NCBI RefSeq assembly: GCF_018406645.1
Contig: NZ_AP024546.1
Span: 2,418,001-2,482,000 of the forward strand
Direction: 5' to 3'
From: Lysobacter helvus
GTDB lineage: Bacteria; Pseudomonadota; Gammaproteobacteria; Xanthomonadales; Xanthomonadaceae
DNA: 64,000 nucleotides
Part shown: positions 25,948 to 42,850 of the stretch, piece by piece
Layout of the letters: each line of letters starts with the position of its first letter
Numbering within the stretch: position 1 is the stretch's first letter
Notes under the pieces: generated by a model
Told to the model about the DNA's origin: nothing
What the model saw: the letters and a program-made list of their open reading frames with translations, nothing else
The model's database searches: none
Position numbers and translations under genes: made by a program

Positions 25948-26385
25948 ATGATCGAACGCATCCTGATCGTCTGCGTCGGCAACATCTGCCGAAGCCCCAT
26001 GGCCGAAATCGTCCTGCGCCACCACCTCGGCGGCGGCGACCACGTGCGCGTCGAATCGGCGGGCCTCGCCGCGCTGGTCGGCAATCCCATCGATCCGCTC
26101 GCGCAACGCGTGCTCGAAGCCAACGGCCTGTCGGGCACCGAACACGTCGCGCGCCAGGTCACCGCGGCGATGATCGGCACCGCCGACCTCGTGCTGGCCA
26201 TGCAGAAGCGGCACCTGGACGCCATCCACGCGATTTCCCCGCAGGCGCGCGGCAAGACGTTCCTCATGGGGCGGTGGAGCGGGAACACCGAAGTCTCCGA
26301 TCCCTACGGCAAGACGCAGCCGGTGTTCGAAGCCTCGTACCGCGACATCGACCGCATGGCGCACGATTGGCGCATGCACCTGTAG
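25948..26385 (+). CDS. wzb: Low-molecular-weight protein tyrosine phosphatase (Wzb type)
   Basis: 145 aa. P-loop C9-VGNIC-R15-S (CX5RS) and the general-acid Asp118 in SDPYGK. It dephosphorylates the Tyr-rich tail of the Wzc kinase, a cycle required for high-molecular-weight capsule or EPS assembly. Starts the polysaccharide locus; wzc lies two genes downstream and wza at the far end. The ATG at 25948 has TACACT 6 nt upstream and no Shine-Dalgarno; an ATG 27 nt upstream is possible but adds residues absent from the family. Confidence 0.92.
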   Translation: MIERILIVCVGNICRSPMAEIVLRHHLGGGDHVRVESAGLAALVGNPIDPLAQRVLEANGLSGTEHVARQVTAAMIGTADLVLAMQKRHLDAIHAISPQARGKTFLMGRWSGNTEVSDPYGKTQPVFEASYRDIDRMAHDWRMHL

Positions 26386-26690
26386 GGCCAATGCAGGATC
26401 GATGCCAACGCGTGGCGCGCGTTGCGTCGCGCACGGTCGGCAACGACGCATCCCCGGAGGAAACGCAGTCCGACAAGCCCAGCGGCCACGCCGACGAAAG
26501 GCAACGGTCCCTGTACGAAGGGTTCACGAAATCCGCGTTTTAACGGGATTTCTTCATCTTTCCATCAACTCCCTCTCAATAGCCTCTCCCGAACCTGCAC
26601 CACCGACACATTCGTGAACACGAAGCGGTGGTGCCGGAAAGGGGTTCCGCATGTACGCGGCGCCTGGTGTCCGGTCATCGAGAGGCGCGC
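26386..26690 (+). other. Leader region of the polysaccharide locus, no gene
   Basis: 305 bp between wzb and the transferase fusion. It is less GC-rich in its middle (26540-26600). A 7-bp stem GAAATCC/GGATTTC lies at 26528-26552. No JUMPstart/ops element, sigma54 site or terminator with a T-run was recognised. A promoter for the main transcription unit probably lies here. Confidence 0.4.
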
Positions 26691-29027
26691 ATGGAAGAAG
26701 CAAAACTGGTGGCCGCGAGTGCGATCGCGTTGGCCGTCACCCTCTTCGCGATTTTTTCCCTGCGCCCGATGGCGCGGCGGCTCGGGCTGGTCGACAAGCC
26801 CGGCGGACGGAAAGCGCACAAGGGTCGCGTCCCGCTGATCGGCGGCCTGTGCTTCTTCGCCGGCACCGTCGCGGGCCTGTTGTACCTGGGCTACATCGAT
26901 GCGTTCGTCGCGAGCCTGCTCGTGCCGTGCGCGCTGATCGTCATGACCGGCCTGGTCGACGACCTGCACGACATGAGCGTCAAGGCGCGCCTGGTGATCC
27001 AGTGCTGCACCGCGTGGCTCGTGATCGGCGCGACGGGCGTGTACCTGGATAGCGCGGGCCACCTGCTCGGCGACATGGAACTGCAGATCGGCCTGCTCGG
27101 CATCCCGGTGACGATCATCGCGGTGATCGGCCTGGTCAACGCCTTCAACATGATGGACGGCATCGACGGCCTCGCCGCGGGCATGGCGATGGTCACGATC
27201 GGCACGATCCTGCTGTTCGCCAACGGCGGGTTCCCGGTGCTGGGCGTGCTGCTCCTGCTGCAGGTGCTGTTCGCTGCGCTGGTGCCGTACCTGTGCGTCA
27301 ACCTCGGTTGGCCCGACGGCCGCAAGATCTTCATGGGCGATGCGGGCAGCACGCTCATCGGCTTCCTGATGGCGTGGAGCCTGATCTATCTGAGCCACGG
27401 CAAGGTCGGCGTGCTCGCGCCGGTGGACACGCTGTGGTGCGTGGCGATCCCGGTGATGGATACCCTCGGCGTGATGCTGCGCCGCATGCGCGCGGGCAAC
27501 TCGCCGTTCAAGCCCGATCGCCAGCACCTGCACCACTTGCTGCTCGATGCCGGTTTCAATGCGCGCATGGCGCTGGCGATGATCACGGGCGCTGGCCTGC
27601 TGATCGGCGGCCTCGGCTTCGTGCTGCGCGATGCGCCGGAGTCGGTGAGCCTGGCCACGTTCGGCGTATTGCTGTTCGCCTACATGACGCGCCTGCCCAA
27701 CCTCATCGCCGCGCTGGGCAGTCGCTTGCCGAAGGCGCACGTCCGCGAGCCGCACGTCGTCACGCATCGCACGCCCGCCGCGAACGTGCAGACGCTCACG
27801 CCGGTCCCGTCGTCGTCGTCCACGGCGCATGCGCCGCCGAACGTGCTCAAGGCGCTGTACGTCGTGGCCGGTGCGTCCGACGCCGCGCAGCTCGCGCCGA
27901 TCGCCGATGCGATGTCGCGCGATGCGCGCTTCGAAGCGCGCATGTGCGTCGCCGCCTCGTGCGCCGAACATCCGGAACAGGTGTTGTCGTTGTTCGACAT
28001 CGCGGCAGACGTGCGCATCAACCTCGCCGCCTCGTCCGACATCGCGCAGACCACGTCCGCCGCCCTGGGCTCGATCGACCGCGTGCTGGCCGAATACCGG
28101 CCCGACATGGTGATCGTGCCGGCCGGTGCGCCCACCAGCGTCGCCACCGCGCTGGCCGCCAGCTACCTGCAGATCCCGATCGCGTGCATCGAAGCCGCGG
28201 GGCCCGCGTCCTCGCGCAGCGCGCCGGAAGCGGCCCGCCGCGTGATCGATTCGCTGGCCACGCTGCACTTCACCGCCACCGAATCGCAGGGCCGCACGCT
28301 CATCGCCGACGGCGTGTCCGCCGAGCGCGTGCTCGTCTCCGGCGACCCGGCGGCCCGCACGCTGCACACCGCGGTCGCGCGCCTGCGCGACGAAGAGGAC
28401 CTGCGCCGCCAGCAAGTGCAGCGCTTCGGCTTCCTGCGCGAGGACGCGCCGCTGCTGCTGGTGCTGGCGCGCGACAAGCTCGGCGAACGCTCCGAACCCC
28501 TGGCCCGCGCCCTGCGCCGCATCGCGCTGCGCCGCCCGGACCTGGACATCGTCTGCCTGCTGCCGCCCTCCCGGAACATGGATGGCATCGACGGGATGCT
28601 CGGCGCCTTCGCCAACATCCACCTCGTCGAGCCGGGCGAATACCTGGACTTCGCGTACCTGGCCGATGCGGCCCACCTGGTGCTGGCCCTGTCGGGCGAC
28701 GTGGCGGCCGAAGCCGCCCCGCTCGGAACGCCTGTCCTGGTGCTGAATACGGCCGTTGACGGTCCGCTCACGAGTGAAGCGCCCAACATCCGTCGTCTCG
28801 ACCTCCATGAACAGACGATCTCGGACGTGGTGCTCCACCTGGTCAGCGATCGTCGGGCGTGGGACACGCTGCGGACCGACGAACGCATGCAGGCGGACGT
28901 GTGCGACCGGATCGTCGAGGCGCTTGCGGGGCTGCGGCCCAGCATCGCGCCGGTGGTGCCGCTGGCACCGGTGGCCGACCTGCCGCGGTACGCGGCGGCG
29001 GGCGACCGGGTGCGAGAGGTGTCCTGA
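26691..29027 (+). CDS. Polyprenyl-P sugar-1-phosphate transferase (WecA/MraY family) fused to a degenerate UDP-GlcNAc 2-epimerase domain
   Basis: 778 aa in one frame. Residues 1-345 form a complete WecA-type integral membrane enzyme with about 10-11 TM helices: VDDLHD (89-94), NAFNMMDGID (150-159), MGDAGS (215-220) and HLHHLL (279-284) are intact. It should load a HexNAc-1-phosphate on undecaprenyl phosphate. After a Pro/Ser linker (about 350-385), residues 386-750 align by eye with WecB, but key residues are replaced: GTRPE reads GASDA, HGDT reads PAGA, and the catalytic-His segment GHRRE reads ARDKL; the VEAG and PEEANR glutamates persist. It is probably a pseudo-epimerase acting as a sensor or scaffold. 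GAGAGG precedes the ATG. Confidence 0.88.
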   Translation: MEEAKLVAASAIALAVTLFAIFSLRPMARRLGLVDKPGGRKAHKGRVPLIGGLCFFAGTVAGLLYLGYIDAFVASLLVPCALIVMTGLVDDLHDMSVKARLVIQCCTAWLVIGATGVYLDSAGHLLGDMELQIGLLGIPVTIIAVIGLVNAFNMMDGIDGLAAGMAMVTIGTILLFANGGFPVLGVLLLLQVLFAALVPYLCVNLGWPDGRKIFMGDAGSTLIGFLMAWSLIYLSHGKVGVLAPVDTLWCVAIPVMDTLGVMLRRMRAGNSPFKPDRQHLHHLLLDAGFNARMALAMITGAGLLIGGLGFVLRDAPESVSLATFGVLLFAYMTRLPNLIAALGSRLPKAHVREPHVVTHRTPAANVQTLTPVPSSSSTAHAPPNVLKALYVVAGASDAAQLAPIADAMSRDARFEARMCVAASCAEHPEQVLSLFDIAADVRINLAASSDIAQTTSAALGSIDRVLAEYRPDMVIVPAGAPTSVATALAASYLQIPIACIEAAGPASSRSAPEAARRVIDSLATLHFTATESQGRTLIADGVSAERVLVSGDPAARTLHTAVARLRDEEDLRRQQVQRFGFLREDAPLLLVLARDKLGERSEPLARALRRIALRRPDLDIVCLLPPSRNMDGIDGMLGAFANIHLVEPGEYLDFAYLADAAHLVLALSGDVAAEAAPLGTPVLVLNTAVDGPLTSEAPNIRRLDLHEQTISDVVLHLVSDRRAWDTLRTDERMQADVCDRIVEALAGLRPSIAPVVPLAPVADLPRYAAAGDRVREVS

Positions 29028-29124
29028 GGAGAGCGGGGCGCTTCAAACCGGATTCGTTCTAGGGGGATCCACGGCGCAGGCAGCGGACGCCTGAGCGGGC
29101 GTGGGTTTCAACCAACTTATATGG

Positions 29125-31401
29125 ATGAGTGAAAAACCAATGGCGACATACCTTTCCACCCGCACCACGCCGCCGCCGCACATCGCCCCGTCCTCGGTGC
29201 GCGACGAGGAGCTGGACCTGCGCACGCTGATGTCCACCCTGGGCGATCACAAGCGCATGATCCTGTTCGGCACGCTCGCCTTCTTCCTGCTCAGCGTGCT
29301 GTACGTCGTGCTGGCCACGCCGAAGTACGAAGCCAATGCGACGGTGCAGGTGGAACGGCGCATGCCGACGTTCCCCGGCCTCAACGCCAACGCGGCGCAG
29401 CAGTCCTCGCCGGCCGAATCGCCGGCCACCACCGAGATCCAGCTTCTCACCTCGCGCACGGTGCTGAGCGAAGCGCTCGACAACCTCGACCTGGACGTGC
29501 AGGTGCAGCCGGCGCGCTTCCCGCTGTTCGGCAGCTACATCGCGCGCCACTTCACGCCGTCGCATCCCAACGCCGTCAACGAACCGTGGTTCGGCATGGC
29601 GCGCTACGGCTGGGGCGGCGAGTCGGTGCAGGTCGCGCGCCTGGACGTGCCGCAGGAACTGATCGACCAGCCGCTGCGCCTCGTCGCCGGCGACGCGAAT
29701 ACCTACACGCTCTACGATCCGGAAGGCCGCGCGCTCGTCCGCGGCACCGTCGGCAAGCCGGTGCAGGCCGGCGGCGTCAACATGCTGGTGCGCAGCCTCA
29801 ACGCGAACCCGGGCATGCGCTTCGAAGTGACGCGCCTCAACTCGCTGGCGATCCTCGACAAGCTGCGCCACGACATCAGCGCGTCCGAACAGGGCCGCGA
29901 TTCCGGCGTGATCGCGTTGAGCTACGAGAACGAAGACCCGGTGCTCGCGCGCCAGGTGCTCGAGCAGGTCAGCCGCGCCTACGTGCACCAGAACGTCGCG
30001 CGCAATTCGGCCGAAGCCGCCAAGCGCCTGCAGTTCGTCAAGCGCCAGCTGCCCAACGTGCGCAAGGAACTGGACAAGGCGCAGGCCGCGCTCACCGCGT
30101 TCCAGTCGCGCACGCAGACGCTGGATGTCGGCGTGCAGAACCAGTCGCTGCTCAACCAGACCGTGCAGATCGATTCGGCCATCAGCCAGCTGCGCATCCA
30201 GCAGGCCGACCTCGCCGCGCGCTTCACGCCGGCGCATCCGATGTACAAGGCGGTGCTGTCGCAGATCGCGCAGTTCCAGGCGCAGAAGGGCCAGCTGCAG
30301 GGCCGCATCGCCGCGCTGCCGGAAACGCAGCAGGGCCTGTTCCGCCTGACGCGCGACGTGGAAGTGACCAACCAGACCTACGCCAGCCTGCTCGACCAGG
30401 CGCAGCAGCTCGACATCGCGCGCGCCAGCGCGGTCGGCAATGCGCGCGTGATCGATCCGGCCGCCGTCAACTACGACAGCCCGGCGTGGCCGAAGCCGTT
30501 GCCGGTGGTGTTCGGCGGCACGCTGCTCGGCGCGCTGCTGATGTTCGGCTTCGTGCTGTTCCGCCAGATGATGCGCCGCGGCGTGGAAGACCCGGCCGAC
30601 ATCGAGCTGCTGGGCCTGCCGGTGTACGCGTCCATCCCGTACAGCGAGCGCGGCCGCGAGATCACGATGCACCCGAGCCGCTTCCCCAACGGGTCGCAGC
30701 GCCTGCTCGCGCTCAACGCACCGACCGACCTTGCGATGGAAGCGCTGCGCAGCCTGCGCACGAGCCTGCACTTCGCGCGCTTCAAGACCAAGAACAACCT
30801 GCTGATGATCTCCGCGCCGAGCCCGGGCGTCGGCAAGACCTTCGTTTGCGCCAACCTCGCCGTGACCATGGCGCAGGCCGGCCAGACGGTGCTGCTGATC
30901 GATGCGGACATGCGTCGCGGCACGCTGCACCACGCGGTGGGCGTGCGTTCGGAAGGCGGCCTGTCGGAACTGATCACCGGCCAGATCCCGCTGGAAGAAG
31001 CGATCCGCAAGGTCGCCGGCGCCGACAACCTGTCCTTCATTTCGCGCGGCGAGATCCCGCCCAACCCGTCCGAGCTGCTGATGAACCCTGCGTTCAACGA
31101 GTTGCTGGAGCAGGTGGGTCCGCGCTTCGACATCGTGATCATCGATACGCCGCCGGTGCTCGCGGTGACCGACGCGGCGGTGATCGGCCACCAGGTGGGC
31201 ACGTGCCTGATGGTGGTGCGTTTCGGCCTGAACCAGCAGCGCGAAATCGCGCTGGCCAAGCAGCGCCTGGAGCAGAACGGCGTGGAAGTGAAGGGCGCGA
31301 TCTTCAACGGCGTCCAGAAGCGCAGCGGTGGCCACTACGCATACACGTACTACGAGTACCTCCCCCAGACCACCAGCAACAAGCATCAGGCGTACCGCTG
31401 A
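29125..31401 (+). CDS. wzc: Polysaccharide co-polymerase/tyrosine autokinase (Wzc/GumC type)
   Basis: 758 aa. The N-terminal Wzz domain with TM1 (about 46-66) is followed by a periplasmic coiled-coil segment, a GNVR-like region, TM2 (about 455-477) and a cytoplasmic BY-kinase domain: Walker A SAPSPGVGKT (563-572), A' LLIDADMRRG (D593), Walker B IVIIDTPP (D674). The C-terminal Tyr cluster HYAYTYYEYLPQ is the autophosphorylation tail. It controls chain length and export together with Wza. Start uncertain: 29101 (GTG), 29125 (ATG) and 29140 (ATG) all lack a convincing ribosome site. Confidence 0.93.
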   Translation: MSEKPMATYLSTRTTPPPHIAPSSVRDEELDLRTLMSTLGDHKRMILFGTLAFFLLSVLYVVLATPKYEANATVQVERRMPTFPGLNANAAQQSSPAESPATTEIQLLTSRTVLSEALDNLDLDVQVQPARFPLFGSYIARHFTPSHPNAVNEPWFGMARYGWGGESVQVARLDVPQELIDQPLRLVAGDANTYTLYDPEGRALVRGTVGKPVQAGGVNMLVRSLNANPGMRFEVTRLNSLAILDKLRHDISASEQGRDSGVIALSYENEDPVLARQVLEQVSRAYVHQNVARNSAEAAKRLQFVKRQLPNVRKELDKAQAALTAFQSRTQTLDVGVQNQSLLNQTVQIDSAISQLRIQQADLAARFTPAHPMYKAVLSQIAQFQAQKGQLQGRIAALPETQQGLFRLTRDVEVTNQTYASLLDQAQQLDIARASAVGNARVIDPAAVNYDSPAWPKPLPVVFGGTLLGALLMFGFVLFRQMMRRGVEDPADIELLGLPVYASIPYSERGREITMHPSRFPNGSQRLLALNAPTDLAMEALRSLRTSLHFARFKTKNNLLMISAPSPGVGKTFVCANLAVTMAQAGQTVLLIDADMRRGTLHHAVGVRSEGGLSELITGQIPLEEAIRKVAGADNLSFISRGEIPPNPSELLMNPAFNELLEQVGPRFDIVIIDTPPVLAVTDAAVIGHQVGTCLMVVRFGLNQQREIALAKQRLEQNGVEVKGAIFNGVQKRSGGHYAYTYYEYLPQTTSNKHQAYR

Positions 31402-31404
31402 CCC

Positions 31405-32880
31405 ATGAATGTCTCGATGCTCGATCCCCGCGCCCTCGCGCCGTCCCTGCAGCGACCGCCGCCGCTGCAGATCACGATGTCGCCGTACTACGGCACGCCG
31501 GATTTCTCCGAAGTGGCGAACACCGCACCGCATCGCCCGATCGACTACGTCTCGGTCGCCGACATCCTGCGCAACGCGTTCGTCTATCCGCCGAACTCGA
31601 TCTTCAAGGACGTCAAGCTGGTGACGTTCGGTTTCTCGCCGGCGCAGGACATGCAGGTGGCGCCGCAGTTCCACTTCAAGTTCCGGGATTCGGGCAAGCG
31701 CGGCGACACCGATGCCTCGCATCCCGACCACGACATCGACTGGGTCGGCACGTACCACAAGCTGCTCGTCGACGCGGTGGCCGCCTCCACGCGCGAGTCG
31801 AAGAACCCGTGGCTGCTGCAGAGCGGCGGCAAGGATTCCACGACGCTCGCCATCGCGGTCGCCGATGCGCGCCCCGACACGGTGTGCATGACGTACCTGG
31901 GCGGGCGCGAGGAAAACGAAGTCGAGTCCGCCACGATGGTGGCGAAGACGCTCGGCCTGCGCCATGAATCGCTGCAGTGCGATCCGGCGCGCGCCTACGA
32001 TCGCTACCTCGCGGTCGCCGACCGCATGCCGCTGCTCACCGCGGACTTCGCGCTGCTGTCCTACGTGGACCTGGCGACCGAAATCTCCGGCCGCGGCGGC
32101 GACGGCGTGATCGACGGCCTCGGCGCCGACAGTTATTTCGGTACGCCGATGTCGCGCCAGCAGCGCTTGCTCAAGCGCCTCGCGCGCGGCGTGCGCCTGC
32201 CGCCGGCCCTGGCGGAACTGCCGCTCATCGACCGCAGCTTCGAGCTGTGCTTCATGCTCGGCACGCTGCAGATGAACTCCATCGAGCGCGTGTTCCCGGG
32301 TTCGCGCTTCACCGATGCGGAAGTCGACGAATTGTTCGGCCAGCCGATCTCGCGCGAATCGCAGGCGCGCCTGGCGCCGTTCCTGGAGGAAATCGCCTCG
32401 GCGAGCAGCCCGGATGAATGGCGCGACATGTCCACGTCCATCGCCGGCTCTGCCGGTGCCTTCGCCAAGGGCCTGTACACGTGCAGCGCGCTCGGCATGC
32501 ACGCGTCCTATCCCTTCTGCGATGTGCGTTTCAGGGAATGGGTGTACCGGGAAGTCCCGCCGCACCAGATGATCGATCCGGTGACGAGGACCAACAAGGT
32601 GCTGGTGCGCAACCATATCGCGACACGCTTCCCCGATCTTCCGTACGTCAAGCGCAAGGGCAGTTTCCGCTTCGACGTGCGCGGCCTGGCCGTCAAGCGC
32701 TTCGATACCGTGCACGAGTTCGCCGTGCAGGCACGCGACGTGTTGCCGGGCGCCGCGGGCTGGCTGGAACGCAATCGCCGTCGCCTCGACAACAAGTACC
32801 ACGCCTCCAAGTTCTACCTGCTGGCGGTGGTGCTCCCCTGGATCCAGTTGCATCGCGCACGCGAACAGCAGGTGCCGTGA
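31405..32880 (+). CDS. Asparagine-synthase-like PP-loop ATPase, copy 1 (no glutaminase domain)
   Basis: 491 aa. The PP-loop LQSGGKDSTTLAIA (SGGKDS at 140-145) and the later GDGVIDGLGADSYFG (about 232-246) correspond to the SGGxDS and SGEGADE(L)FGGY motifs of asparagine synthase C-terminal domains. There is no N-terminal Cys2 glutamine amidotransferase; instead, a ~110-residue N-terminus contains VSVADILRNAFVYPPNSIF. It should adenylate a carboxylate and pass it to an amine or ammonia. In polysaccharide loci, AsnB-like proteins amidate uronic acids (e.g. WbpS in Pseudomonas O6), so sugar-carboxyl amidation is a reasonable hypothesis. It lies 3 bp after wzc and is a tandem paralogue of the next gene. 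Confidence 0.82.
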   Translation: MNVSMLDPRALAPSLQRPPPLQITMSPYYGTPDFSEVANTAPHRPIDYVSVADILRNAFVYPPNSIFKDVKLVTFGFSPAQDMQVAPQFHFKFRDSGKRGDTDASHPDHDIDWVGTYHKLLVDAVAASTRESKNPWLLQSGGKDSTTLAIAVADARPDTVCMTYLGGREENEVESATMVAKTLGLRHESLQCDPARAYDRYLAVADRMPLLTADFALLSYVDLATEISGRGGDGVIDGLGADSYFGTPMSRQQRLLKRLARGVRLPPALAELPLIDRSFELCFMLGTLQMNSIERVFPGSRFTDAEVDELFGQPISRESQARLAPFLEEIASASSPDEWRDMSTSIAGSAGAFAKGLYTCSALGMHASYPFCDVRFREWVYREVPPHQMIDPVTRTNKVLVRNHIATRFPDLPYVKRKGSFRFDVRGLAVKRFDTVHEFAVQARDVLPGAAGWLERNRRRLDNKYHASKFYLLAVVLPWIQLHRAREQQVP

Positions 32881-34304
32881 CCCTCGTGATGACCCCGTCC
32901 GCGCTTGCCACGACCCCGTCGCCCGCGGCGGCCGCACGCGCGCCCGTCGCCGACGTGCACGGGCAGGCGATCGATGCGGTGTCCGTCGCCGACGTGTTGC
33001 GCAACGGGTTCGTCTATCCGCCGCATTCGATCTTCGAAGGCGTCGACATGCAGTCGCTCTCGGCCAACCTGGCCGGGCGCGATCCGCACGGGCCGGACGC
33101 ATGGCGCTTCCGCTGGCGCGACAGCGGGAAGAAGCGCGACCGGCACGCTGTGGCGTCCCCGGACTGGGTGGCGGCCTACCATCGCCACCTGTGCGAAGCG
33201 ATCGAGTCCAGCTGTGCGGAGATCGCCGCGCCGTTCTCGTTGCAGAGCGGCGGCAAGGATTCCACGACGCTGGCGATCGCGCTGGCCGACGCGCGGCCCG
33301 ACACCACGTGCATCACCTACCTCGGCGGCACCGAGGAAAACGAAGTCGCGTCCGCGCGCACCGTGGCCACCACGCTCGGCCTGCGCCACGAAGCGCTGAC
33401 CTGCGATCCCGGCCGCGCGTACGACCGCTACCTCGAACTCGCGCCGCGCATGCCGTCGCTCACCGCGGACTTCGCGTTGCTGTCGTACTGCGACCTGGCC
33501 TACGAGATCGCGTCGTTGCGCGGCGACGGCATGGTCGACGGGCTGGGCTCGGATACGTACTTCGGCATCCCGGTCAATTCGCAGTACAAGATCCTCAAGT
33601 GGCTCGCGCGCGGCGTGCGCCTGCCGCGCAAGACGACGGAACTGCCGTGGGTCGGCGACAACTTCGAGTTGTGCTTCGCGCTGGGCACGTTGCAGATGAA
33701 CGCCGTGGAGCGCGTGTTCCCCGGTTCGCGCTTCACCGACGCGGAAGTGGACGAACTGTGCGGCCGCACCATCGCGCACCAGTCGCGCGCGCGCCTGCAG
33801 CCGTTCCTCGATGAGATCGGCACGGCGACGAGCCCGGAGGAATTCCGGGTGATGTCGCTGTCGATCGCGGCGGCCGCCGGCGGTTTCGCGAAGGGCCTGT
33901 ACACCGCCGAAGCGATGCCGATGAAGATCGCCTATCCCTTCTGCGATCCGCATTTCTGCGACTGGATCTACCGCGACGTGCCGGTGGAGTTGCTGATGGA
34001 TCCGGTCACGGGCCTGAGCAAGGTGCTCGTGCGCCAGCACATCGCCACGCGCTTCTCGAGCCTGCCGTACGTGCAGCACAAGGGCAGCTTCCGCTTTGAC
34101 GTGCGCGGGCTCGCCGCCGCGCGCTACGACCAGGTGCATGCGTTCGCCGAAGATGCGCGGCATGCGTTGCCGGGTGCGGTCAACTGGCTGGATCGCAACC
34201 GCACGCGGCTGGACAACAAGTACCACGCCTCGAAGTTCTACCTGCTCGCCGTGCTGCTGCCCTGGCTGACGGGCCGCCTGCAGGGACAGGACCGCATCGC
34301 ATGA
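32877..34304 (+). CDS. Asparagine-synthase-like PP-loop ATPase, copy 2
   Basis: 475 aa, well over half identical by eye to the preceding protein along its whole length: VSVADVLRNGFVYPPHSIFEG, LQSGGKDSTTLAIALADARPDT, DGLGSDTYFG, LGTLQMNAVERVFPGSRF and LDNKYHASKFYLLAV. It also lacks a glutaminase domain. Copy 1 has GLGADSYFG where copy 2 has GLGSDTYFG, so the acceptor sites may differ. GTG at 32877 overlaps the previous stop (GTGA); ATG at 32889 is an alternative. Its stop overlaps the beta-helix gene start (ATGA). Confidence 0.82.
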   Translation: MTLVMTPSALATTPSPAAAARAPVADVHGQAIDAVSVADVLRNGFVYPPHSIFEGVDMQSLSANLAGRDPHGPDAWRFRWRDSGKKRDRHAVASPDWVAAYHRHLCEAIESSCAEIAAPFSLQSGGKDSTTLAIALADARPDTTCITYLGGTEENEVASARTVATTLGLRHEALTCDPGRAYDRYLELAPRMPSLTADFALLSYCDLAYEIASLRGDGMVDGLGSDTYFGIPVNSQYKILKWLARGVRLPRKTTELPWVGDNFELCFALGTLQMNAVERVFPGSRFTDAEVDELCGRTIAHQSRARLQPFLDEIGTATSPEEFRVMSLSIAAAAGGFAKGLYTAEAMPMKIAYPFCDPHFCDWIYRDVPVELLMDPVTGLSKVLVRQHIATRFSSLPYVQHKGSFRFDVRGLAAARYDQVHAFAEDARHALPGAVNWLDRNRTRLDNKYHASKFYLLAVLLPWLTGRLQGQDRIA

Positions 34305-35392: not shown

Positions 35393-35398
35393 GCAAGA

Positions 35399-35533: not shown

Positions 35534-35574
35534 CCCCAGTCAGGCGGGCGCAAGCCGCGCATTTCCCCAGTCAG
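35534..35574 (+). promoter_or_regulatory. Direct repeat CCCCAGTCAG x2 upstream of beta-helix copy 2
   Basis: Exact decamers at 35534-35543 and 35565-35574, 31 bp apart (about three helical turns), in the 334-bp gap before the second beta-helix gene. A possible regulator site; no known consensus is recognised. The rest of the gap holds no gene. Confidence 0.4.
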
Positions 35575-35726
35575 ATTCGTGAAACGCGTGAAGGCCGGAC
35601 CGTCCATCCGGTGAAGATTCAACGCAGTCCACAGATTGCACACGAGGCCAGTGACGTTCGCTGCGTCCTCTCCCTAGTGTCCGACCCACGCCGCGAATGT
35701 GAGCGCGACGTGAAAGGGGACGGGGA

Positions 35727-36905
35727 ATGGACACGAAGACGCAGCAGCTCGACGGCCTCGGCCGCCGCACCTTCCTTCGCAACGCACTGCTCGCGGGCGT
35801 TCCGCTCGCGCTCGGCGGCGTCGCCTTCGGCGCATCGGCCGCAACGGTCCGCCGCACGCCCACCCTCCAGTCGATCTACGCGCCGCCGGCCCGCACCCGC
35901 GGCGCCACCGTGCTGGACGTGCGCAAGTACGGCGCCTTCGGCGACGGCGTGCACGACGACACCGCCGCCTTCAACGCCGCCATCAAGGCGCTCCCGGCCG
36001 ACGGCGGCACCGTCACCGTGCCGGCCGGCAACTACCTGATCAACGCCGTCACCTCGATCAACCTTCGCAGCAAAATGCACCTGCAGCTGGATCCGGCGGC
36101 CACGCTGGTGTGCAAGCCCAACGCCGAAGAGAAGGCCTACGTCATCTACGCCTACAAGGTGTCGGACGTGGAGATCTCCGGCGGCCGCGTGACCGGCGAT
36201 CGCTACAACCACCTCGGCACGACCGGCGAGTGGGGCCACGCGGTGTTCGTGCGCGGTTCGCAGCGCGTGACCGTGCGCGACATGCTGCTGTCGGATTGCT
36301 GGGGCGACGGCATGTCGATCGGCGCGGCGCTGGTCTTCAACGGCGATCCCATCCCGTCCGAGGACGTGGTGGTCGCCAACGTCGTGTGCACCAACAACCG
36401 TCGCCAGGGCCTGTCGATCGGCCGCGGCAACAACGTGGTCATCCGCGATTCGGAATTCAGCAACAGCAACGGCACGGCGCCGGAGTGCGGCATCGACATC
36501 GAGCCGGACGATCCGGGCATCTCCAACGTGGTGTCGATCGAGAACTGCGTGCTGCGCGGCAACAAGAAGTACGGCCTGATGGCCTACAAGCGCTCGACCA
36601 ACACGTCGATCCGCCGCTGCACGATCGAGAAGAACGGCAGCTGCGGCATCGTCACCGTGGGCACCAACAGCATGCGCATCGAGGCCAACACGATCCGCCT
36701 CAATTCGGCGACCGGCGTGTACATCCAGGACGGTTCGAACGACTGCGAGATCACCGGCAACACCTTCTACGGCAACTACGCGCGCAACGGCATCGTGGAC
36801 CGCGTCGACTTCACCCAGACCGGGTGGACCTCGAAGATCGAGCGCGACATCCTGGTCAAGACGATGACGACCAACGTGCGCGTGATGTCCAACTTCTACA
36901 AGTAA
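35727..36905 (+). CDS. Tat-exported right-handed beta-helix protein, copy 2
   Basis: 392 aa. Tat signal GRRTFLRNALLAGVPLALGG with cleavage near ASAA, then LDVRKYGAFGDGVHDDTAAFNAA and beta-helix coils. It shares LGTTGEWGH, CWGDGMSIG, NRRQGLSIGR, ECGIDIEPDD and MAYKRSTNTSIRRCTIE-type coils with copy 1, so it is a tandem paralogue, but it has its own upstream region and a GGGGA ribosome site. A strong terminator follows. Probably acts on the polymer made by this locus. Confidence 0.82.
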   Translation: MDTKTQQLDGLGRRTFLRNALLAGVPLALGGVAFGASAATVRRTPTLQSIYAPPARTRGATVLDVRKYGAFGDGVHDDTAAFNAAIKALPADGGTVTVPAGNYLINAVTSINLRSKMHLQLDPAATLVCKPNAEEKAYVIYAYKVSDVEISGGRVTGDRYNHLGTTGEWGHAVFVRGSQRVTVRDMLLSDCWGDGMSIGAALVFNGDPIPSEDVVVANVVCTNNRRQGLSIGRGNNVVIRDSEFSNSNGTAPECGIDIEPDDPGISNVVSIENCVLRGNKKYGLMAYKRSTNTSIRRCTIEKNGSCGIVTVGTNSMRIEANTIRLNSATGVYIQDGSNDCEITGNTFYGNYARNGIVDRVDFTQTGWTSKIERDILVKTMTTNVRVMSNFYK

Positions 36906-36922
36906 TCCACCGGACGGCGGGC

Positions 36923-36940
36923 CCCGCGCAGCTGCGCGGG
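36923..36940. repeat. 18-bp perfect palindrome
   Basis: CCCGCGCAGCTGCGCGGG, immediately before the terminator after beta-helix copy 2; it could act as an RNA 3'-end-stabilising hairpin. Confidence 0.6.
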
Positions 36941-36947
36941 CCCACCC

Positions 36948-36983
36948 AAAGGCAGGCGTCGGGGGGCGCCTGCCTTTCTTTTT
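36948..36983 (+). terminator. Rho-independent terminator inside the polysaccharide locus
   Basis: AAAGGCAGGCG/CGCCTGCCTTT 11-bp stem (loop TCGGGGGG) followed by CTTTTT. It separates the beta-helix genes from wzx. Confidence 0.88.
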
Positions 36984-37076
36984 GCCCGTCGTTTGGCATC
37001 CATCGCCTGCTTCGTGCGTTGTTCTTCACGACGCCGCCGGTATCGTCCGGCGGCTTTGGTGCAGGACGCGGCGCGG

Positions 37077-38438
37077 ATGGATTCGAAGCAGGCAGGGGGT
37101 GCCTCGGTGGCGATGGAACCGGGCCCGGGACGGCTCGCACATTGGCTCGTGCCGGGCTGGAAACGGGCGCTGACCACGATCGGCATGCTGGGCGCGGCCA
37201 CCGCGCTGGGCGCCGTGCTGGTGTTCCTGACGCAGACGCTGCTGGCGCGCGAGCTCGGGCCGGACGACTATGGCCTGTTCGCGTCGTCGCTGGCGACGGT
37301 GACGATGATCGCGCCGCTCGCGGGTTTCGGGCTCACCCAGTTCCGGTTGAAGGTGTACGGCATCGAGGGCTGGGCCGCCGCGCGCTGGTTGCGGCCGTCG
37401 TTGCGCTTCACCACGGGCACCACGATCGCCGCGCTCGCGATCATCGTGTTCTGGGCGTTGTTCGTCGCGCCCGATGCGGACACGCGCTTCGACCTGCTCG
37501 TGCTGACGCCGGTGGTGCTCAGCATCCTGGCGATCGACTTGATGAGCAACCGCCTGCGCCTGGAGGATCGTTACGGGCAGATGGCGTCGTGGCAGCTCGC
37601 GATCCCGGCGAGCCGGTTCGTGGTGGCGCTCGCGCTGTTGCTGGTGCCGACGTTGACCGGGCGCTTCGTGTCGATTTCCTACGCGCTGATCTCGCTCGCG
37701 CTCGTCGGCTTCGCGCTGCCGCAGCTGCGCGGCATGATCCGTGGCGAGATCGACCTGCGCGGCCACGGCCCACGCGTCGACATCCCCGCACCGACGCAAC
37801 CGCCGCGCGTGGCGGAAGTGTGGTCGCAGGCGTGGATGTACGGCATGGTCGCCGTGCTCTATCCGGTGTTCTTCCAGATCAGCACGATCCTGCTGAAGTA
37901 CCTGGCGGGCGATGCGTACGCGGGCATCTACAGCATCGCGCTCGCGATCATGACGGCGATCTACCTCATCCCCGCGACGATCTACCAGAAATTCCTGTTG
38001 TCGAAACTGCACCGCTGGGCCGCGCACGACCAGCCGAAGTTCTGGCTCGTGTACAAGCGCGGCAACCTCGGCATGTTCCTGCTCGGCCTCGCCGTGAGCG
38101 CCTCGCTGGTGGTGGTGGCGCCGTTCGTGGTGCCGCGCGTGTTCGGCCACGCCTACGCCGGCGTGACCACGATCCTGATGATCCTGGCGATCTGTCCGCC
38201 GATCCGGTTCCTGTCGACCGCAATGGGCTCGGCGCTGCTCACCGACCACCACATGCGGTACCGGGTGTACGCGATGGCGTGGGCCACCGGCGTGGCCATC
38301 GTCCTGAACGCCGCCTTGATCCCGTTCTTCCATGAGGTGGGCGCCGCCTGGGCGACCGTTGCCGCGGAAACGGTGCTGTTGCTCGGGACGTGGCACGGCG
38401 TGCGGCATTTCCACCGTGCGAAGGGCATGCATTCATGA
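37077..38438 (+). CDS. wzx: Polysaccharide flippase (Wzx-like)
   Basis: 453 aa, about 12-13 TM helices, polysaccharide-synt/MOP family: MLGAATALGAVLVFLTQTLLARELGPDDYGLFAS is the typical first-helix region with the TLLAR-LGP-(E/D)-YG motif. It should translocate undecaprenyl-PP-linked repeat units. The start at MDSKQAGG (37077) is preferred; MEPGPGR at 37113 is also possible. A terminator lies upstream, so a promoter or read-through is needed. Its stop overlaps the next start (ATGA). Confidence 0.87.
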   Translation: MDSKQAGGASVAMEPGPGRLAHWLVPGWKRALTTIGMLGAATALGAVLVFLTQTLLARELGPDDYGLFASSLATVTMIAPLAGFGLTQFRLKVYGIEGWAAARWLRPSLRFTTGTTIAALAIIVFWALFVAPDADTRFDLLVLTPVVLSILAIDLMSNRLRLEDRYGQMASWQLAIPASRFVVALALLLVPTLTGRFVSISYALISLALVGFALPQLRGMIRGEIDLRGHGPRVDIPAPTQPPRVAEVWSQAWMYGMVAVLYPVFFQISTILLKYLAGDAYAGIYSIALAIMTAIYLIPATIYQKFLLSKLHRWAAHDQPKFWLVYKRGNLGMFLLGLAVSASLVVVAPFVVPRVFGHAYAGVTTILMILAICPPIRFLSTAMGSALLTDHHMRYRVYAMAWATGVAIVLNAALIPFFHEVGAAWATVAAETVLLLGTWHGVRHFHRAKGMHS

Positions 38439-39643
38439 CGGACCCCTCACGGCTCGATCGTTATCACGGCGTCATGGATCCGGCCTATACCGACATTGCC
38501 GCCGAACACCAGGCGCCGCCGCCTGCCCGCGTGATGCTTGGGAAGGCGACGATCTACGCGATCTTCGTGGCGTGGTCGCTGTTCGCGGTGTTCGTCTACA
38601 GCCGATACAGCCAGCTCGGCGATGCCCGCTCGTACCTCACGGGCGCGTACGACGATGCATCGTCGGCGCGCACGTACTTCGTGACGCAGCTGGCCACGAC
38701 GGTCATCGGCCTGGTGCACGTCGACGTGCTCGCGCACCTGGTGTTTTCCTTGTTCGCGGCGAGCGGCGTGGCCTACCTCGTCGGCCAGGCGCGCCTGCAC
38801 GGACAGTACCGCTGGCCGTTGCTCGCGATCCTGCTGATCCCCAGTTTCGGTGTGTGGGCGTCGGTGGTGGGGCGCGAATCGCTGTACATCGGCCTGCTCG
38901 GATTCTTCATGGGCGCGCTGGTCGGTTACGTGCGTTCGGGTGGATTCCTGCGTTGGTGGCTCGCGGTGTTCTGCGTCGCGGGCATGGTCTTCATCCGCGC
39001 GCCGTTCGGCGCGGCGATGGCGGGCTGCTTCCTGATGACGTGGATCCTCGTGCGCGGACCGCGTACCGGGTTGAGCACGGGCGTGCAGGCGCTGGTGATG
39101 TTCCTGCTCGCGGCGCTCGTGCTGGTGGTCGCGTGGCCGCAGCTGGATGCGTACATCGCGGGCGAAGTGCTGCCGAAGGCGCGTTCGTATTTCACGATCG
39201 GGTCGGCGACGACGCGCATGTGGGTCAACATCGCCGACACCAACGAATTGTTCTCCAGCCTGTGGTGGACGCTGCCGCTGTCGCTGGTCGGTCCCACGCC
39301 TGGCGAAGTGCTGTCGCGGCCGGTGATGTTCCCCTTCATGGTGTCGGGGCTGGTCGTCTTCTTCGTGCTGCTCTATGCGATCCAGCAGGCGTTCCGCGCC
39401 CCGGCCGGCCTGCCGCGCAAGGTGCTGGTGCTCGCCTGGTTGCCGGCGATGCTGGTGACGCTGGTCGCGTACGTGCCGTTCGGCATCTACAACCCCGGCA
39501 GTGGCATCCGTTACGCCTCGTGTTTCCTGCTGTTCCTCGTCTTCCCGTGGATGGTGCGTTCGGGCGTGGCTGCGCCGGCGGAAACGCCGCGCATGCGCCA
39601 CCGCGGCGTCATCTACGACTATCGCCTTGCGGAGCTCCGATGA
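38435..39643 (+). CDS. Multi-pass membrane protein, candidate polysaccharide polymerase (Wzy)
   Basis: 402 aa, about 10 predicted TM helices after a ~45-residue cytoplasmic N-terminus; a larger loop lies between TM7 and TM8 (about 260-300: AGEVLPKARSYFTIGSATTRM...). There is no diagnostic sequence motif. Position between wzx and a glycosyltransferase, topology, and the lack of any other polymerase candidate make Wzy the best guess. Four-base overlaps link it with both neighbours. Confidence 0.6.
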   Translation: MTDPSRLDRYHGVMDPAYTDIAAEHQAPPPARVMLGKATIYAIFVAWSLFAVFVYSRYSQLGDARSYLTGAYDDASSARTYFVTQLATTVIGLVHVDVLAHLVFSLFAASGVAYLVGQARLHGQYRWPLLAILLIPSFGVWASVVGRESLYIGLLGFFMGALVGYVRSGGFLRWWLAVFCVAGMVFIRAPFGAAMAGCFLMTWILVRGPRTGLSTGVQALVMFLLAALVLVVAWPQLDAYIAGEVLPKARSYFTIGSATTRMWVNIADTNELFSSLWWTLPLSLVGPTPGEVLSRPVMFPFMVSGLVVFFVLLYAIQQAFRAPAGLPRKVLVLAWLPAMLVTLVAYVPFGIYNPGSGIRYASCFLLFLVFPWMVRSGVAAPAETPRMRHRGVIYDYRLAELR

Positions 39644-40806
39644 AGTTCGTGTTCTACGCCAACACCGATTGGTACCTCTACAACTTCCGCCTCTCCACGG
39701 CGCTGCGCCTGAAGTCGGAGGGACACGAGGTGGTGATGCTGTCGCCGCCCGGCGAGTTCGGCGCGCGGTTCGAGACGCACGGGCTGCGCTGGATCCAGCT
39801 CGCGATGGATCGCGCCAGCCTCAACCCGGTGCGCGAAGCGGCACTGATCCGCACGCTGGCGCGCGTGCTGCGCGAAGAGCGCCCGGACCTGCTGCACAAC
39901 TTCACCGTCAAGTGCGCGATCTACGGTGCGATCGCCGCGCGCGCCGCCGGCGTGCCCGCGGTCGTCAATGCGGTGGCCGGCATGGGTTACGTGTTCGCCA
40001 GCGAACGCATGCTCGCGCGCACGCTGCGCCCGATGGTCAAGTTGCTGATGCGCGGCACGCTGGGTGGCAAGCAGTCGCGCCTGATCCTGCAGAATCCGGA
40101 CGACGCCGACGCTTTCGTGCGCGCGCGCCTGGTGCCGGAACAGCACATCCGCGTGATCCGCAGTTCCGGCGTCAACCTGGAACGCTTCCTCCCCGTGCAG
40201 CCCATCGACGAACCGCGCCCGCTGCGCGTGCTCCTCGCCGCGCGCCTGCTGTGGGAAAAGGGCATCGGCGAATACATCGAGGCCGCGCGCATCCTGCGTG
40301 CGCAGGGCCGCACCATCGAGTTCGTGATCGCCGGTTCGCCCGACCCGGGCAACCCGCGTTCGGTGAGCCGCGAACAGGTGGAAGGCTGGGCCGCCGACGG
40401 CCTCGTCGACTGGCGCGGGCACGTGGAAGACATGCCGGGCCTGATGCGTTCGATGGATGTCATCGCGTTGCCGAGCTATTACCGCGAAGGCGTGCCGAAG
40501 AGCCTCATCGAAGCCGCGGCCTGCGGCCTCGCCGTGGTGACCACCAACTTGCCCGGTTGCCGAGAAGTGGTGCGCGAACACGGCGTCGACGGCCTGCACG
40601 TCGAACCGCGTTGCGCGCGCTCGCTGGCCGATCGCCTGGTGGAGCTCGACGACGATCGCGTGCTGCTGCGCCGCCTCGGCGATCGCGCGCGCCAGAACGC
40701 GCTGGAACACTTCGACGAGCAGATGGTGATCACGCGCACCATCGCGGTGTACGACGAACTGCTGCCGACGCGCCGCGCCGCGCACAAGGCAGCCGCGGCG
40801 GCCTGA
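39640..40806 (+). CDS. GT4 family glycosyltransferase
   Basis: 388 aa, GT-B fold. The N-terminal domain MKFVFYANTDWYLYNFRLSTA resembles WcaI/PglA/WbpX-type transferases. The C-terminal donor site has LLAARLLWEKGIGEYIEAA and the EX7E motif in REGVPKSLIEAAACGLAVVTT. It should add a sugar to the lipid-linked acceptor. It is the only free-standing glycosyltransferase of the locus. ATGA overlap with the upstream gene. Confidence 0.9.
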   Translation: MKFVFYANTDWYLYNFRLSTALRLKSEGHEVVMLSPPGEFGARFETHGLRWIQLAMDRASLNPVREAALIRTLARVLREERPDLLHNFTVKCAIYGAIAARAAGVPAVVNAVAGMGYVFASERMLARTLRPMVKLLMRGTLGGKQSRLILQNPDDADAFVRARLVPEQHIRVIRSSGVNLERFLPVQPIDEPRPLRVLLAARLLWEKGIGEYIEAARILRAQGRTIEFVIAGSPDPGNPRSVSREQVEGWAADGLVDWRGHVEDMPGLMRSMDVIALPSYYREGVPKSLIEAAACGLAVVTTNLPGCREVVREHGVDGLHVEPRCARSLADRLVELDDDRVLLRRLGDRARQNALEHFDEQMVITRTIAVYDELLPTRRAAHKAAAAA

Positions 40807-40807
40807 C

Positions 40808-41572
40808 GTGATGGGTTTCCTGCGCGAAGCGCTCGTGGCGCTGACGTTTCCCCTTGCGTTGACGCTGGCGGGATTGCTGTTGGCGGCCGTCGTGTGGCGA
40901 TTGCGCTGGCGCCGCACGGCGATGACGCTCGCCGTCCTCGCGCTCGGCTGGTCGGCGGTGTGGTCGGTGCCGCGCAATTCCGAATGGCTGCGGCAGTCGC
41001 TGGAAGACCGCCACGCGAGCGAACACGAACGCGCGCTGCCCACCGCCGATGCGATCGTCGTGCTCGGCGGCGGCGGTTACACGTGGGTGAGCCGCCCCGG
41101 CGTGACCATCGATGACCTGAAATACAGCCGGCTGGCCGCGGGCGCGCGCCTGTTCCTGGCCGATCGCGCGCCGCGCGTGATCCTGTCCGGCGGCGGCGTG
41201 GGCAAGAACACCGAGGCCCGCAACATGGCGCGCGGCATGCAGGTGCTGGGCGTGCCGCAATCGGCGCTCCTGCTGGAAGAGAAGAGCCACGACACCGACG
41301 ACAACGCACGCTACGTCGGGATGCTGGCGCGCGAGCAGGGTGTCCACCGGATCCTGCTGGTCACCTCGGCGGTGCACATGCCGCGGGCCAGCCTGCTGTT
41401 CCGCCGCAACGGCATGGAAGTCTTCGAAGTGCCGGTGCCCGAGCCGACGCTCGGCGGTACCTGGGCGGACCAGTGGATCCCCAGCGGCCGTGCCCTGTGG
41501 CGCAGCGGGCGTGCGTTGAAGGAGTACGCGGGCCTCGTCGCCCTGTGCCTCGGCGCCGATAAGCCTGCGTGA
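40808..41572 (+). CDS. YdcF/SanA-like membrane protein (DUF218)
   Basis: 254 aa. Two N-terminal TM helices, then the DUF218 domain: ADAIVVLGGGGYTW, RVILSGGGVGKNTEA, EEKSHDTDDNARYVG and LLVTSAVHMPRA. Members are linked to envelope and polysaccharide biogenesis (ElyC-like), but their biochemistry is unclear. GTG at 40808 or ATG at 40811; it begins 1 nt after the glycosyltransferase stop. Confidence 0.87.
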   Translation: MMGFLREALVALTFPLALTLAGLLLAAVVWRLRWRRTAMTLAVLALGWSAVWSVPRNSEWLRQSLEDRHASEHERALPTADAIVVLGGGGYTWVSRPGVTIDDLKYSRLAAGARLFLADRAPRVILSGGGVGKNTEARNMARGMQVLGVPQSALLLEEKSHDTDDNARYVGMLAREQGVHRILLVTSAVHMPRASLLFRRNGMEVFEVPVPEPTLGGTWADQWIPSGRALWRSGRALKEYAGLVALCLGADKPA

Positions 41573-41752
41573 AACCGGTCGGGGTGGTGGGGCGGCCCTT
41601 TTTCACGTGGCGCGTGCATCCCTGTACGTAGGCTCCCGGCGACAACCTGAATTCGGCCCGCGTCGCGCGCTTTCCCTGCTTTTCCGCGACGCCAACGTGA
41701 CCACAAACGCGACGTGCGCAGGCCGCCGTCGACCAGCCAGGAGGGATCCACC

Positions 41753-42850
41753 TTGAGCACTATCTCGAGAGCTGCAATGACCAGCGCGACACTGAGCCTT
41801 GCACTCGCATCGGCCATCGCGCTCACCGGCTGCATTCCCGGCCAGCAGATGACCCAGACGGGACCGGGCTCGGTCACGGTGTCGGGCGAATCGATCAACG
41901 TCATGCCGATCACCAGCGAACTGGTCGGTGCCAAGCGCGCCCCGGTGGTGGTGCCGCAGGAACTGGCGAGCTTCCAGCCCGTCGCGTACGAAGTGAGCCC
42001 GGGCGACACGCTCATCATCACCGTGTGGGACCACCCGGAACTCACCACGCCGGCCGGCTCGCAGCAGCAGACGGTCATCAACGGCCGCCAGGTGCAGCCG
42101 GACGGGACGCTGTTCTATCCCTACGCCGGCAAGGTCAAGGTCGGCGGGATGACCGTGGAGCAGGTGCGCAGCACGCTCGAGAAGCGCCTGGCGCGTTACC
42201 TCAAGGATCCGCAGGTCGACGTCAACGTGGTCGGCTACGGCGGTCGCGTGTCGCTGCAGGGCGCCTTCACCAACACCGCGCCGCAGGACACCACCGTGGT
42301 GCCGCAGACGCTGTCGCAGGTGATCGGCCGCGCCGGCGTGGACGTGGCCAATGCCGACTTGTCGGGCCTGGTGCTCACGCGCGACGGTCGCAACTACAAC
42401 CTCGACCTCGATGCGCTCAACCGCAACGGCGTGGCGCCGGACATCTACCTCAAGCCGGGCGACCGCGTGTACCTGCCGTACAACGATCGCAAGCAGATCT
42501 ACGTGGTGGGCGAGGTGCGCACGCCGCAGGCGATCAGCTTCAAGACCAGCGACATGTCGCTGACGCAGGCCCTCGGCCGCGCCGGTGGCCTGAATCCGGA
42601 AACCTCCAAGGGCAAGGCGGTCTACGTGATCCGCGGCATGGACGACACGGCCAACATGCCGTCCACCGTCTACCACCTGGACGCGCGCTCGCCTGCCGCC
42701 TTCGCGCTCGCCTCGCGCTTCCCGCTGCGCGCCGGCGACGTCGTGTGGGTGGGCCCGGCCGGCATCACGCGCTGGAACCGCTACATCACGCAGCTGCTGC
42801 CGTTCTCGGGCCTGATCCGGAACGCCGCCGCGGCGGGCGCCGATTTGTAA
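41753..42850 (+). CDS. wza: Outer-membrane polysaccharide export lipoprotein Wza, TTG start
   Basis: 365 aa. A lipoprotein signal with lipobox LTGC (Cys about 31) is followed by the Poly_export domain (YEVSPGDTLIITVWDHPEL, DGTLFYPYAGKVKVGGMTVEQ) and two SLBB domains (RVSLQGAFTN and QIYVVGEVRTPQAISFK). The final helix RYITQLLPFSGLIRNAA would form the outer-membrane alpha-helical pore. TTG at 41753 is chosen because AGGAGGG lies 7 nt upstream and gives a correct signal peptide. A 180-bp gap separates it from the DUF218 gene. Confidence 0.93.
   Translation: MSTISRAAMTSATLSLALASAIALTGCIPGQQMTQTGPGSVTVSGESINVMPITSELVGAKRAPVVVPQELASFQPVAYEVSPGDTLIITVWDHPELTTPAGSQQQTVINGRQVQPDGTLFYPYAGKVKVGGMTVEQVRSTLEKRLARYLKDPQVDVNVVGYGGRVSLQGAFTNTAPQDTTVVPQTLSQVIGRAGVDVANADLSGLVLTRDGRNYNLDLDALNRNGVAPDIYLKPGDRVYLPYNDRKQIYVVGEVRTPQAISFKTSDMSLTQALGRAGGLNPETSKGKAVYVIRGMDDTANMPSTVYHLDARSPAAFALASRFPLRAGDVVWVGPAGITRWNRYITQLLPFSGLIRNAAAAGADL

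Follow-up and report, generated by a model that had tools for sequence, protein, structure and literature searches.

What could a surface-polysaccharide locus do with two AsnB-like PP-loop proteins and two beta-helix proteins, lined up between its tyrosine autokinase and its flippase? This question is raised by positions 25921-42850 of a 64,000-nucleotide stretch of Lysobacter helvus (assembly GCF_018406645.1, contig NZ_AP024546.1, positions 2,418,001 to 2,482,000), the whole of which is called the window here. A first-pass annotation had proposed a polymer with a very short repeat, amidated or aminoacylated on its carboxyl groups in the cytoplasm and trimmed or modified outside, with the duplicated pairs acting as one functional cassette. 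We find it reasonably probable that the PP-loop proteins are amide ligases acting on a carboxylated sugar, and that the beta-helix proteins are polymer-specific enzymes, within a Wzx/Wzy-dependent exopolysaccharide (EPS) or capsule locus. The host genome is a single contig of 3.27 Mb, and in the tree, the first PP-loop protein has its closest neighbours in Lysobacter gilvus, L. dokdonensis, and L. lactosilyticus. The run contains the following features, with glycosyltransferase abbreviated to GT and a twin-arginine motif to RR:

25921-26385, + strand: wzb, low-molecular-weight tyrosine phosphatase (PF01451, 2.1e-35; NCBIfam Wzb PRK10126, 3.7e-40, below its cut-off)
26691-29027, + strand: WecA-like initiating transferase for N-acetylhexosamine 1-phosphate (HexNAc-1-P), in fusion with a degenerate UDP-GlcNAc 2-epimerase domain (PF00953, 3.3e-30; PF02350, 1.6e-40)
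29140-31401, + strand: wzc, tyrosine autokinase and chain-length regulator (PF02706, PF23607, PF13807; PRK11519, 7e-204, below its cut-off)
31405-32880, + strand: pp1, AsnB-type PP-loop protein without a glutaminase domain (PF00733, 1.1e-14)
32877-34304, + strand: pp2, PP-loop protein (PF00733, 1.5e-7; GTG start at 32877, or ATG at 32889)
34301-35392, + strand: bh1, beta-helix protein of the bh1 clade, RR motif SRRACLRV (PF13229, 3.8e-31; PF12708, 1.4e-14)
35405-35479, no strand: inverted repeat of GGGAACAG units in the bh1-bh2 gap
35727-36905, + strand: bh2, beta-helix protein, RR motif GRRTFLRN (PF13229, 1.4e-21)
36948-36977, + strand: terminator-like hairpin in the bh2-wzx gap, 13 pairs followed by CTTTTT
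37077-38438, + strand: wzx flippase (PF01943, 1.1e-7)
38435-39643, + strand: probable Wzy polymerase, 9 hydrophobic segments, a neighbour of wzx also in relatives that share the locus type
39640-40806, + strand: GT4 glycosyltransferase (PF13692, 1.4e-27)
40808-41572, + strand: ydcF, YdcF/DUF218 protein (PF02698, 3.1e-30)
41777-42850, + strand: wza, outer-membrane export lipoprotein (PF02563 and PF22461 on a longer frame, 41714-42850)
42878-42903, + strand: terminator-like hairpin 3' of wza

Judged by its genes, the run is a complete Wzx/Wzy EPS locus of Lysobacteraceae. Its neighbours are a GNAT gene and a gene that we call radA-like on the basis of its sequence and its Pfam matches. An initiator, Wzx, Wzy, Wzc, Wzb, and Wza are all present together with a single GT4, as had been claimed; family matches identify them, except for the Wzy candidate, which has no Pfam or NCBIfam match and is called from its position and topology. 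The tandem PP-loop proteins, both with PF00733, and the two beta-helix proteins with RR signal motifs are likewise where they had been placed, whereas ydcF had been left out of the earlier gene list. In relatives, homologues of these genes again occur side by side, with 35-91% identity for each matched gene, so the grouping is not due to chance. Coupling by overlapping starts, also claimed earlier, applies to part of the run. The wzc-pp1 gap is 3 bases, pp1 and pp2 overlap by 4 bp with the GTG start at 32877 (the overlap is gone with the ATG start at 32889), and pp2 and bh1 overlap by 4 bp (ATGA); bh1 and bh2, however, are 334 bp apart and have no translational coupling between them. A terminator scan returned 9 sites against a shuffled mean of 8.6, and thus only the stem length and position of the bh2-wzx hairpin stand out. 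As a separate observation on the bh1-bh2 gap, the GGGAACAG pattern occurs 4 times in the window, each time within 35405-35479, with 0 expected by chance.

Relatives of the PP-loop proteins are present in 34 of the 247 family genomes and in 11 of the 54 genera. In a class-level draw of 369 genomes, with at least four further Lysobacterales genomes in it, both the PP-loop profile (E 1e-15) and the beta-helix profile (1e-40) matched the L. helvus genome only, weaker relatives being uncounted for either profile. Contigs of named genomes were scanned with two short peptide patterns, by which divergent relatives may be missed, and gave 59 loci, all labelled Lysobacterales or its families or genera except for one contig from a metagenome-assembled genome. 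This contig (L103) is labelled Candidatus Eremiobacteraeota, yet it stands among Rhodanobacteraceae in the tree and is probably mis-binned. At the thresholds used, the putative ligase family was therefore seen only in Lysobacterales, an order whose members live mostly in soil and water.

Together with the window, 60 loci were mapped, with relatives recorded as match stretches. Of these, 41 have both wzc and a PP-loop gene: 31 are from Lysobacteraceae and 10 from Rhodanobacteraceae, two of the latter having been assigned by hand. The PP-loop gene directly follows wzc in 31/31 Lysobacteraceae loci and in 0/10 Rhodanobacteraceae loci. Behind the last PP-loop gene, a beta-helix gene comes next on the map in 29/31 and 10/10 loci, respectively, and the two others are contig ends. 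Conservation of the gene order in relatives, which the first-pass annotation had put forward as its check, was thus seen for PP-loop followed by beta-helix in all 39 loci that are not cut by a contig end. The doubled form did not stand: two copies of each gene occur in 7 of the 41 loci (three plus four across the two families), one PP-loop gene with two beta-helix genes occurs in 21, and the exact order wzc-pp-pp-bh-bh-wzx is found in 3, window included. The duplicated pairs are therefore not the unit. In the remaining 19 mapped loci, the stretch that was fetched contains no wzc; they comprise partial EPS loci as well as lone PP-loop paralogues.

The gene trees agree with the copy numbers in ruling out that the PP-loop and beta-helix genes were doubled together. 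The window pp1 and pp2 share 59% identity, and pp2 groups with the pp2 of two relatives (support 100/100), while the PP-loop pairs of L089, L093, and L085/L097 stand separate, with the joining fork unsettled. The PP-loop gene thus appears to have been duplicated several times independently. In contrast, the beta-helix genes separate into two paralogous clades across the family, one for the first and one for the second gene, with 24 rows in each (SH-aLRT 91 and 88, not starred).

After the trees had been viewed, two locus types were singled out. Type A, that of the window, reads bh-bh-wzx-wzy-gt, and type B (16 loci) reads bh-bh-gt-wzx, followed in 13/16 loci by a pyruvyltransferase-like gene, and then by a GT2 and an EpsG-type polymerase. 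With the extra GT2 and the pyruvyltransferase-like gene in these relatives, the "very short repeat" stays a conjecture. In gene trees covering up to 24 loci, the minimum number of type changes is 5 for wzb, wecAB, and wzc and 4 for pp and wza, as opposed to 1 for bhfirst, bhlast, and wzx and 2 for gt and ydcF. A single type-A clade is rejected by the approximately unbiased test (p-AU) for wzc (1e-36), wecAB (4e-6), wza (2e-5), and pp (0.007), whereas such a clade is present with support 100 for bhlast and wzx. The wzx result is partly built in, because it is the wzx/wzy/gt arrangement that distinguishes the types; the beta-helix result is free of this, linkage aside. We read wzb, wecAB, wzc, the PP-loop genes, and wza as a putative stable frame, and the beta-helix, wzx, wzy, and GT genes as an exchanged block that may set the polymer type. 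Since the trees split the locus between the PP-loop and beta-helix genes, the single functional cassette was not borne out; the split instead points to the genes expected to set the polymer type.

What would the beta-helix proteins do to such a polymer? The AlphaFold2 model of bh2 (pLDDT 90.7) is a parallel beta-helix whose top fold matches are the AlgE4 and AlgE6 C5-epimerases and an alginate epimerase/lyase, with crystal structures of the RbmB lyase further down. In a sequence-profile comparison, the best match of solved structure is the phage tail fibre gp22 (entry 7qoj, 4e-45), in whose alignment the family motifs are visible. Among 95 beta-helix stretches, these motifs are GDRxxH in 95, GEW in 87, GDG in 95, NRRQG in 86, and DIEP in 71. 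Furthermore, 387 phage records have stretches similar to the beta-helix protein, none covering 80% of the query, and its PHROGs and viral-fold matches are tail proteins (fibres and spikes). Based on these folds and tail matches, polysaccharide is presumably bound and probably cut or modified. The predicted fold agrees with the earlier proposal of trimming or modification outside the cell, and the proteins are probably polymer-specific lyases or C5-epimerases, as the fold alone cannot separate the two. Both window proteins carry RR motifs, judged by eye, which suggests export by the twin-arginine translocation (Tat) pathway. Two more members of the beta-helix family lie elsewhere in the genome, outside the EPS locus (G000:C1:2375499-2376626 and 3264710-3265837).

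It is quite possible, if not what we favor, that these proteins are depolymerases that serve dispersal or clearance, as RbmB does, rather than maturation; this would be compatible with either role of the PP-loop proteins discussed below. According to one report, RbmB, for which a beta-helix fold is predicted, cuts by beta-elimination the Vibrio polysaccharide (VPS) of Vibrio cholerae, which carries an amide-linked glycine on C6 of a gulose-type residue (PMC11637428). The RbmB structures among the fold matches of bh2, as well as the phage tail fibres and spikes as best sequence relatives, are in line with a depolymerase. However, the two paralogous clades are kept in most Lysobacteraceae loci, which suggests two distinct steps, and the top folds are C5-epimerases, even if the fold does not tell a lyase from an epimerase.

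For the PP-loop proteins, a model of pp1 predicted by AlphaFold2 on 43 sequences (pLDDT 90.6) has TsnB9 as its nearest solved fold (Z 20.6, root mean square deviation 3.9 Å over 383 residues, 16% identity), followed by carbapenam synthetase, asparagine synthetases, and beta-lactam synthetase. All of these are ligases of the AsnB superfamily, which activate a carboxyl to make an amide. The SGGKDS motif, Lys398, and Lys418 are invariant in all 79 matched PP-loop stretches. With an SGGxDS PP-loop, a synthetase fold, and PF00733 above its cut-off, the proteins belong to the AsnB superfamily. Residues 26-487 of the model align with residues 142-609 of TsnB9, and therefore the front domain is missing. 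In agreement, Pfam and NCBIfam scans of pp1 and pp2 found no glutaminase family, and TIGR03104 and TIGR03108 match PP-loop proteins only from profile position 174 onward. The N-terminal class-II glutaminase domain that defines the WbpS type is thus absent from both proteins. Moreover, the wzc match and the PP-loop match are at most 195 bases apart in 31/31 Lysobacteraceae loci, too small a gap for such a domain. Based on these folds and motifs, we infer ATP-dependent carboxyl ligases whose nitrogen donor would not be channelled from glutamine; the invariant motif and the AsnB-superfamily folds support as likely the earlier suggestion that they form amides on carboxyls.

A plain synthesis of uronamide, with the PP-loop proteins acting like WbpS on free ammonia or through a borrowed glutaminase and having merely lost the domain, would place CONH2 on a uronic acid. 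We regard this as unlikely, though not negligible. It has precedents in that WbpS is described as a uronamide maker for O-antigen, and deletion of the AsnB-like PGN_1234, which adjoins wzx, abolished a uronamide and thus demonstrated the conversion of carboxyl to amide on a uronic acid (PMC7468200 and PMC3684757). The PP-loop and the two lysines are also kept. However, besides the missing domain and the lack of room for it, the two class-II glutaminase families searched match only two places in the L. helvus genome, both far from the locus (PF00310 not searched). The other PF00733 matches of this genome lie beside one gene and within another, which we take to be queE-like and to begin like GMP synthase, respectively. 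Furthermore, in a motif-based alignment, the position that we take to be the ammonia-handling Glu348 of AsnB is hydrophobic in 78 of the 79 stretches (Leu 67, Met 8, Ile 3; Gln in the remaining 1).

An amide-forming role on a carboxylated sugar, which we prefer, would proceed as follows. WecA would prime undecaprenyl phosphate with HexNAc-1-P, and the GT4 (plus a GT2 in relatives) would add sugars, at least one of them with a carboxyl group. In the cytoplasm, the PP-loop proteins would activate this carboxyl with ATP as an acyl-AMP and then join nitrogen to it. The product would be a uronamide or, more likely because the PP-loop family is without a glutaminase domain, the amide of an amine or of an amino acid. 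The chain would then be flipped, polymerised, and exported by Wzx, Wzy, Wzc, and Wza. Finally, the beta-helix proteins, exported in folded form by Tat, would bind the finished polymer and either cut it as lyases or invert its uronates as C5-epimerases, each matched to its own polymer type. In this scheme, we infer the carboxyl-sugar substrate, the nucleophile, the beta-helix chemistry, and the Tat export. A possible source of the carboxyl is seen in the UDP-glucose-dehydrogenase-like genes in or at the edge of four relatives' loci (L102, L104, L113, and L129). That of L129 is 73% identical to a TuaD-like enzyme which L. helvus encodes outside the locus, together with a TviB-like dehydrogenase.

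Several observations weigh against this reading. No dehydrogenase lies within the locus of the window, and the TviB-like dehydrogenase is nearly universal (232/247 family genomes), so no given uronic acid can be tied to the polymer; for the same reason, co-occurrence of uronic-acid dehydrogenases with PP-loop genes was uninformative as a pointer to the substrate. A simple RR pattern is present in just 44 of 67 beta-helix gene calls of relatives, with starts unverified, and Tat export is therefore supported for only part of these proteins. In the trees, the type-A clade of bhfirst has a support of only 55, and gt falls in between, with 2 changes and a single type-A clade not rejected (p-AU 0.13). 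The co-inheritance of beta-helix genes and wzx is suggestive only, because neighbours recombine together without functional coupling. Lastly, small molecules may be the substrates of the lone PP-loop paralogues that lie outside EPS loci, next to a tyrosinase or an aromatic hydroxylase.

The lone paralogues fall into several clades. One (L105, L111, and L127; support 100/100), which spans Luteimonas, Lysobacter, and Vulcaniibacterium, lies directly behind an RR-signal tyrosinase in 3/3 cases, and another, with five members from Dyella (100/100), lies in four of them behind a flavin hydroxylase. In L109, the best NCBIfam match of this hydroxylase is VioC, below the cut-off, and we take the Dyella enzyme to be kynurenine-monooxygenase-like. 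A third clade has three members behind a GT2. In addition, two Frateuria loci include an RR-signal tyrosinase in their group of beta-helix genes. The genes are located as follows:

L105 1984-3639, L111 8397-9950, L127 8251-9891: exported tyrosinases upstream of a lone PP-loop paralogue
L109 8481-9944, L115 8492-9952, L120 8184-9644, L128 8265-9803: flavin hydroxylases upstream of a lone PP-loop paralogue, Dyella
L113 10120-11631 (partial locus), L129 17494-18948: RR-signal tyrosinases among beta-helix genes, Frateuria

That the PP-loop family produces some small amide and owes its place in EPS loci to regulation or history is improbable: the tyrosinase (3/3) and hydroxylase (4/5) neighbours would suit it, but the EPS locus is the commonest context (the 41 of 60 mapped loci with wzc), a beta-helix neighbour follows in every locus not cut by a contig end, and one lone clade stands behind a GT2.

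Tyrosinase genes occur in 28 of the 247 family genomes, in 11/34 with a PP-loop gene versus 17/213 others (one-sided Fisher p 3e-4, kinship ignored). By genus, the counts are 7/11 versus 6/43 (p 0.002, kinship ignored), including one genus (g16) whose two genes sit in different genomes. As 23 of the 34 PP-loop genomes are without a tyrosinase, the link is at most lineage-specific. It is a highly speculative idea, and one we think will probably prove wrong, that PP-loop proteins link uronic acids of the exported polysaccharide to amino acids or aromatic amines, and that in some lineages exported tyrosinases oxidise the phenol and cross-link the matrix. If true, bacteria would have a glycan-based equivalent of the catechol adhesion of mussels, and the PP-loop proteins would be a new class of carboxyl-amine ligases. 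The L. helvus genome itself has tandem RR-signal tyrosinases adjoining dnaJ/dnaK-like genes (L167 4877-6460 and 6603-8111) and a third tyrosinase-like domain in a 1004-residue frame (L168 5326-8340).

The initiating enzyme of the locus raises a question of its own. The first-pass annotation had found no nucleotide-sugar genes, overlooking the epimerase domain fused to WecA, although this domain looks inactive. The WecA-like PF00953 match covers residues 74-234 and PF02350 covers residues 407-745 (window 27909-28925). Against the ECA_wecA model the fusion scores 281.7 bits, below the cut-off of 326, and its epimerase domain, the sole PF02350 match in the genome, matches WecB structures at about 1e-47. 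The catalytic residues of WecB are Asp95, Glu117, Glu131, and His213; in comparison with E. coli WecB, the HGD aspartate is replaced by glycine, the HRRE histidine has no counterpart, and the HVEAG glutamate is kept, these three being the positions that we take as catalytic. The conserved aspartate, glutamate, and histidine of a functional WecB are thus not all retained. Among 30 fused proteins, the Asp column holds D 18, N 6, G 4, and E 2, the Glu117 column holds E 10, D 17, and G 3, and the C-terminal half is lost in at least 5. With catalytic columns this loose and the C-terminal half lost in some proteins, the domain appears to be a leftover without catalytic function, which might sense a UDP-sugar or act as a scaffold. 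A role in supplying N-acetylmannosamine is disfavoured by the lost residues, although no other PF02350 match exists in the genome. Unfused WecA proteins of 361-410 residues are found in the loci of nine relatives (Rhodanobacteraceae and kin). The fusion of a decayed epimerase to WecA might have a regulatory or scaffolding role.

How does the locus compare with known systems? Among the matches listed from a largely open-access literature, the titles and abstract openings do not describe this gene set. The present locus unites the themes of three known systems in one gene neighbourhood. With WbpS and PGN_1234 it shares an AsnB-superfamily synthetase, which in PGN_1234 adjoins wzx (PMC7468200 and PMC3684757). 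In contrast, the present family is a subfamily of its own without the glutaminase domain, and it has beta-helix partners instead of Wbp sugar genes; since the defining domain is absent, the locus is not a member of the WbpS type. Like VPS with RbmB, it combines an EPS with a beta-helix enzyme, and RbmB is among the fold matches of bh2. VPS is also of Wzx/Wzy type with rbmB in gene proximity, but its initiating enzyme differs from that of the present locus, and we know of no PP-loop/beta-helix pair there. To our knowledge, the uronic-acid amide-forming enzymes of bacterial surface polymers are all glutamine-dependent and of the WbpS type. Putative AsnB-type ligases without a glutaminase domain, present across the lineage and adjoined in every uncut EPS locus by a beta-helix gene for probable polymer modification, would be a defined pair for testing. 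The hydroxyamidotransferase TsnB9 is the closest solved fold to the PP-loop protein; however, it is a Streptomyces natural-product enzyme with a longer N-terminal region. Its homologue SaHAT activates a free carboxyl with ATP, according to PMC13418202. Finally, the mannuronan C5-epimerases AlgE4 and AlgE6 and the alginate epimerase/lyase, the best Foldseek rows, have the same right-handed beta-helix and a similar N-terminal stretch, but they share only 16-20% identity with the beta-helix proteins, whose family motifs are seen instead in the alignment with the phage tail fibre.

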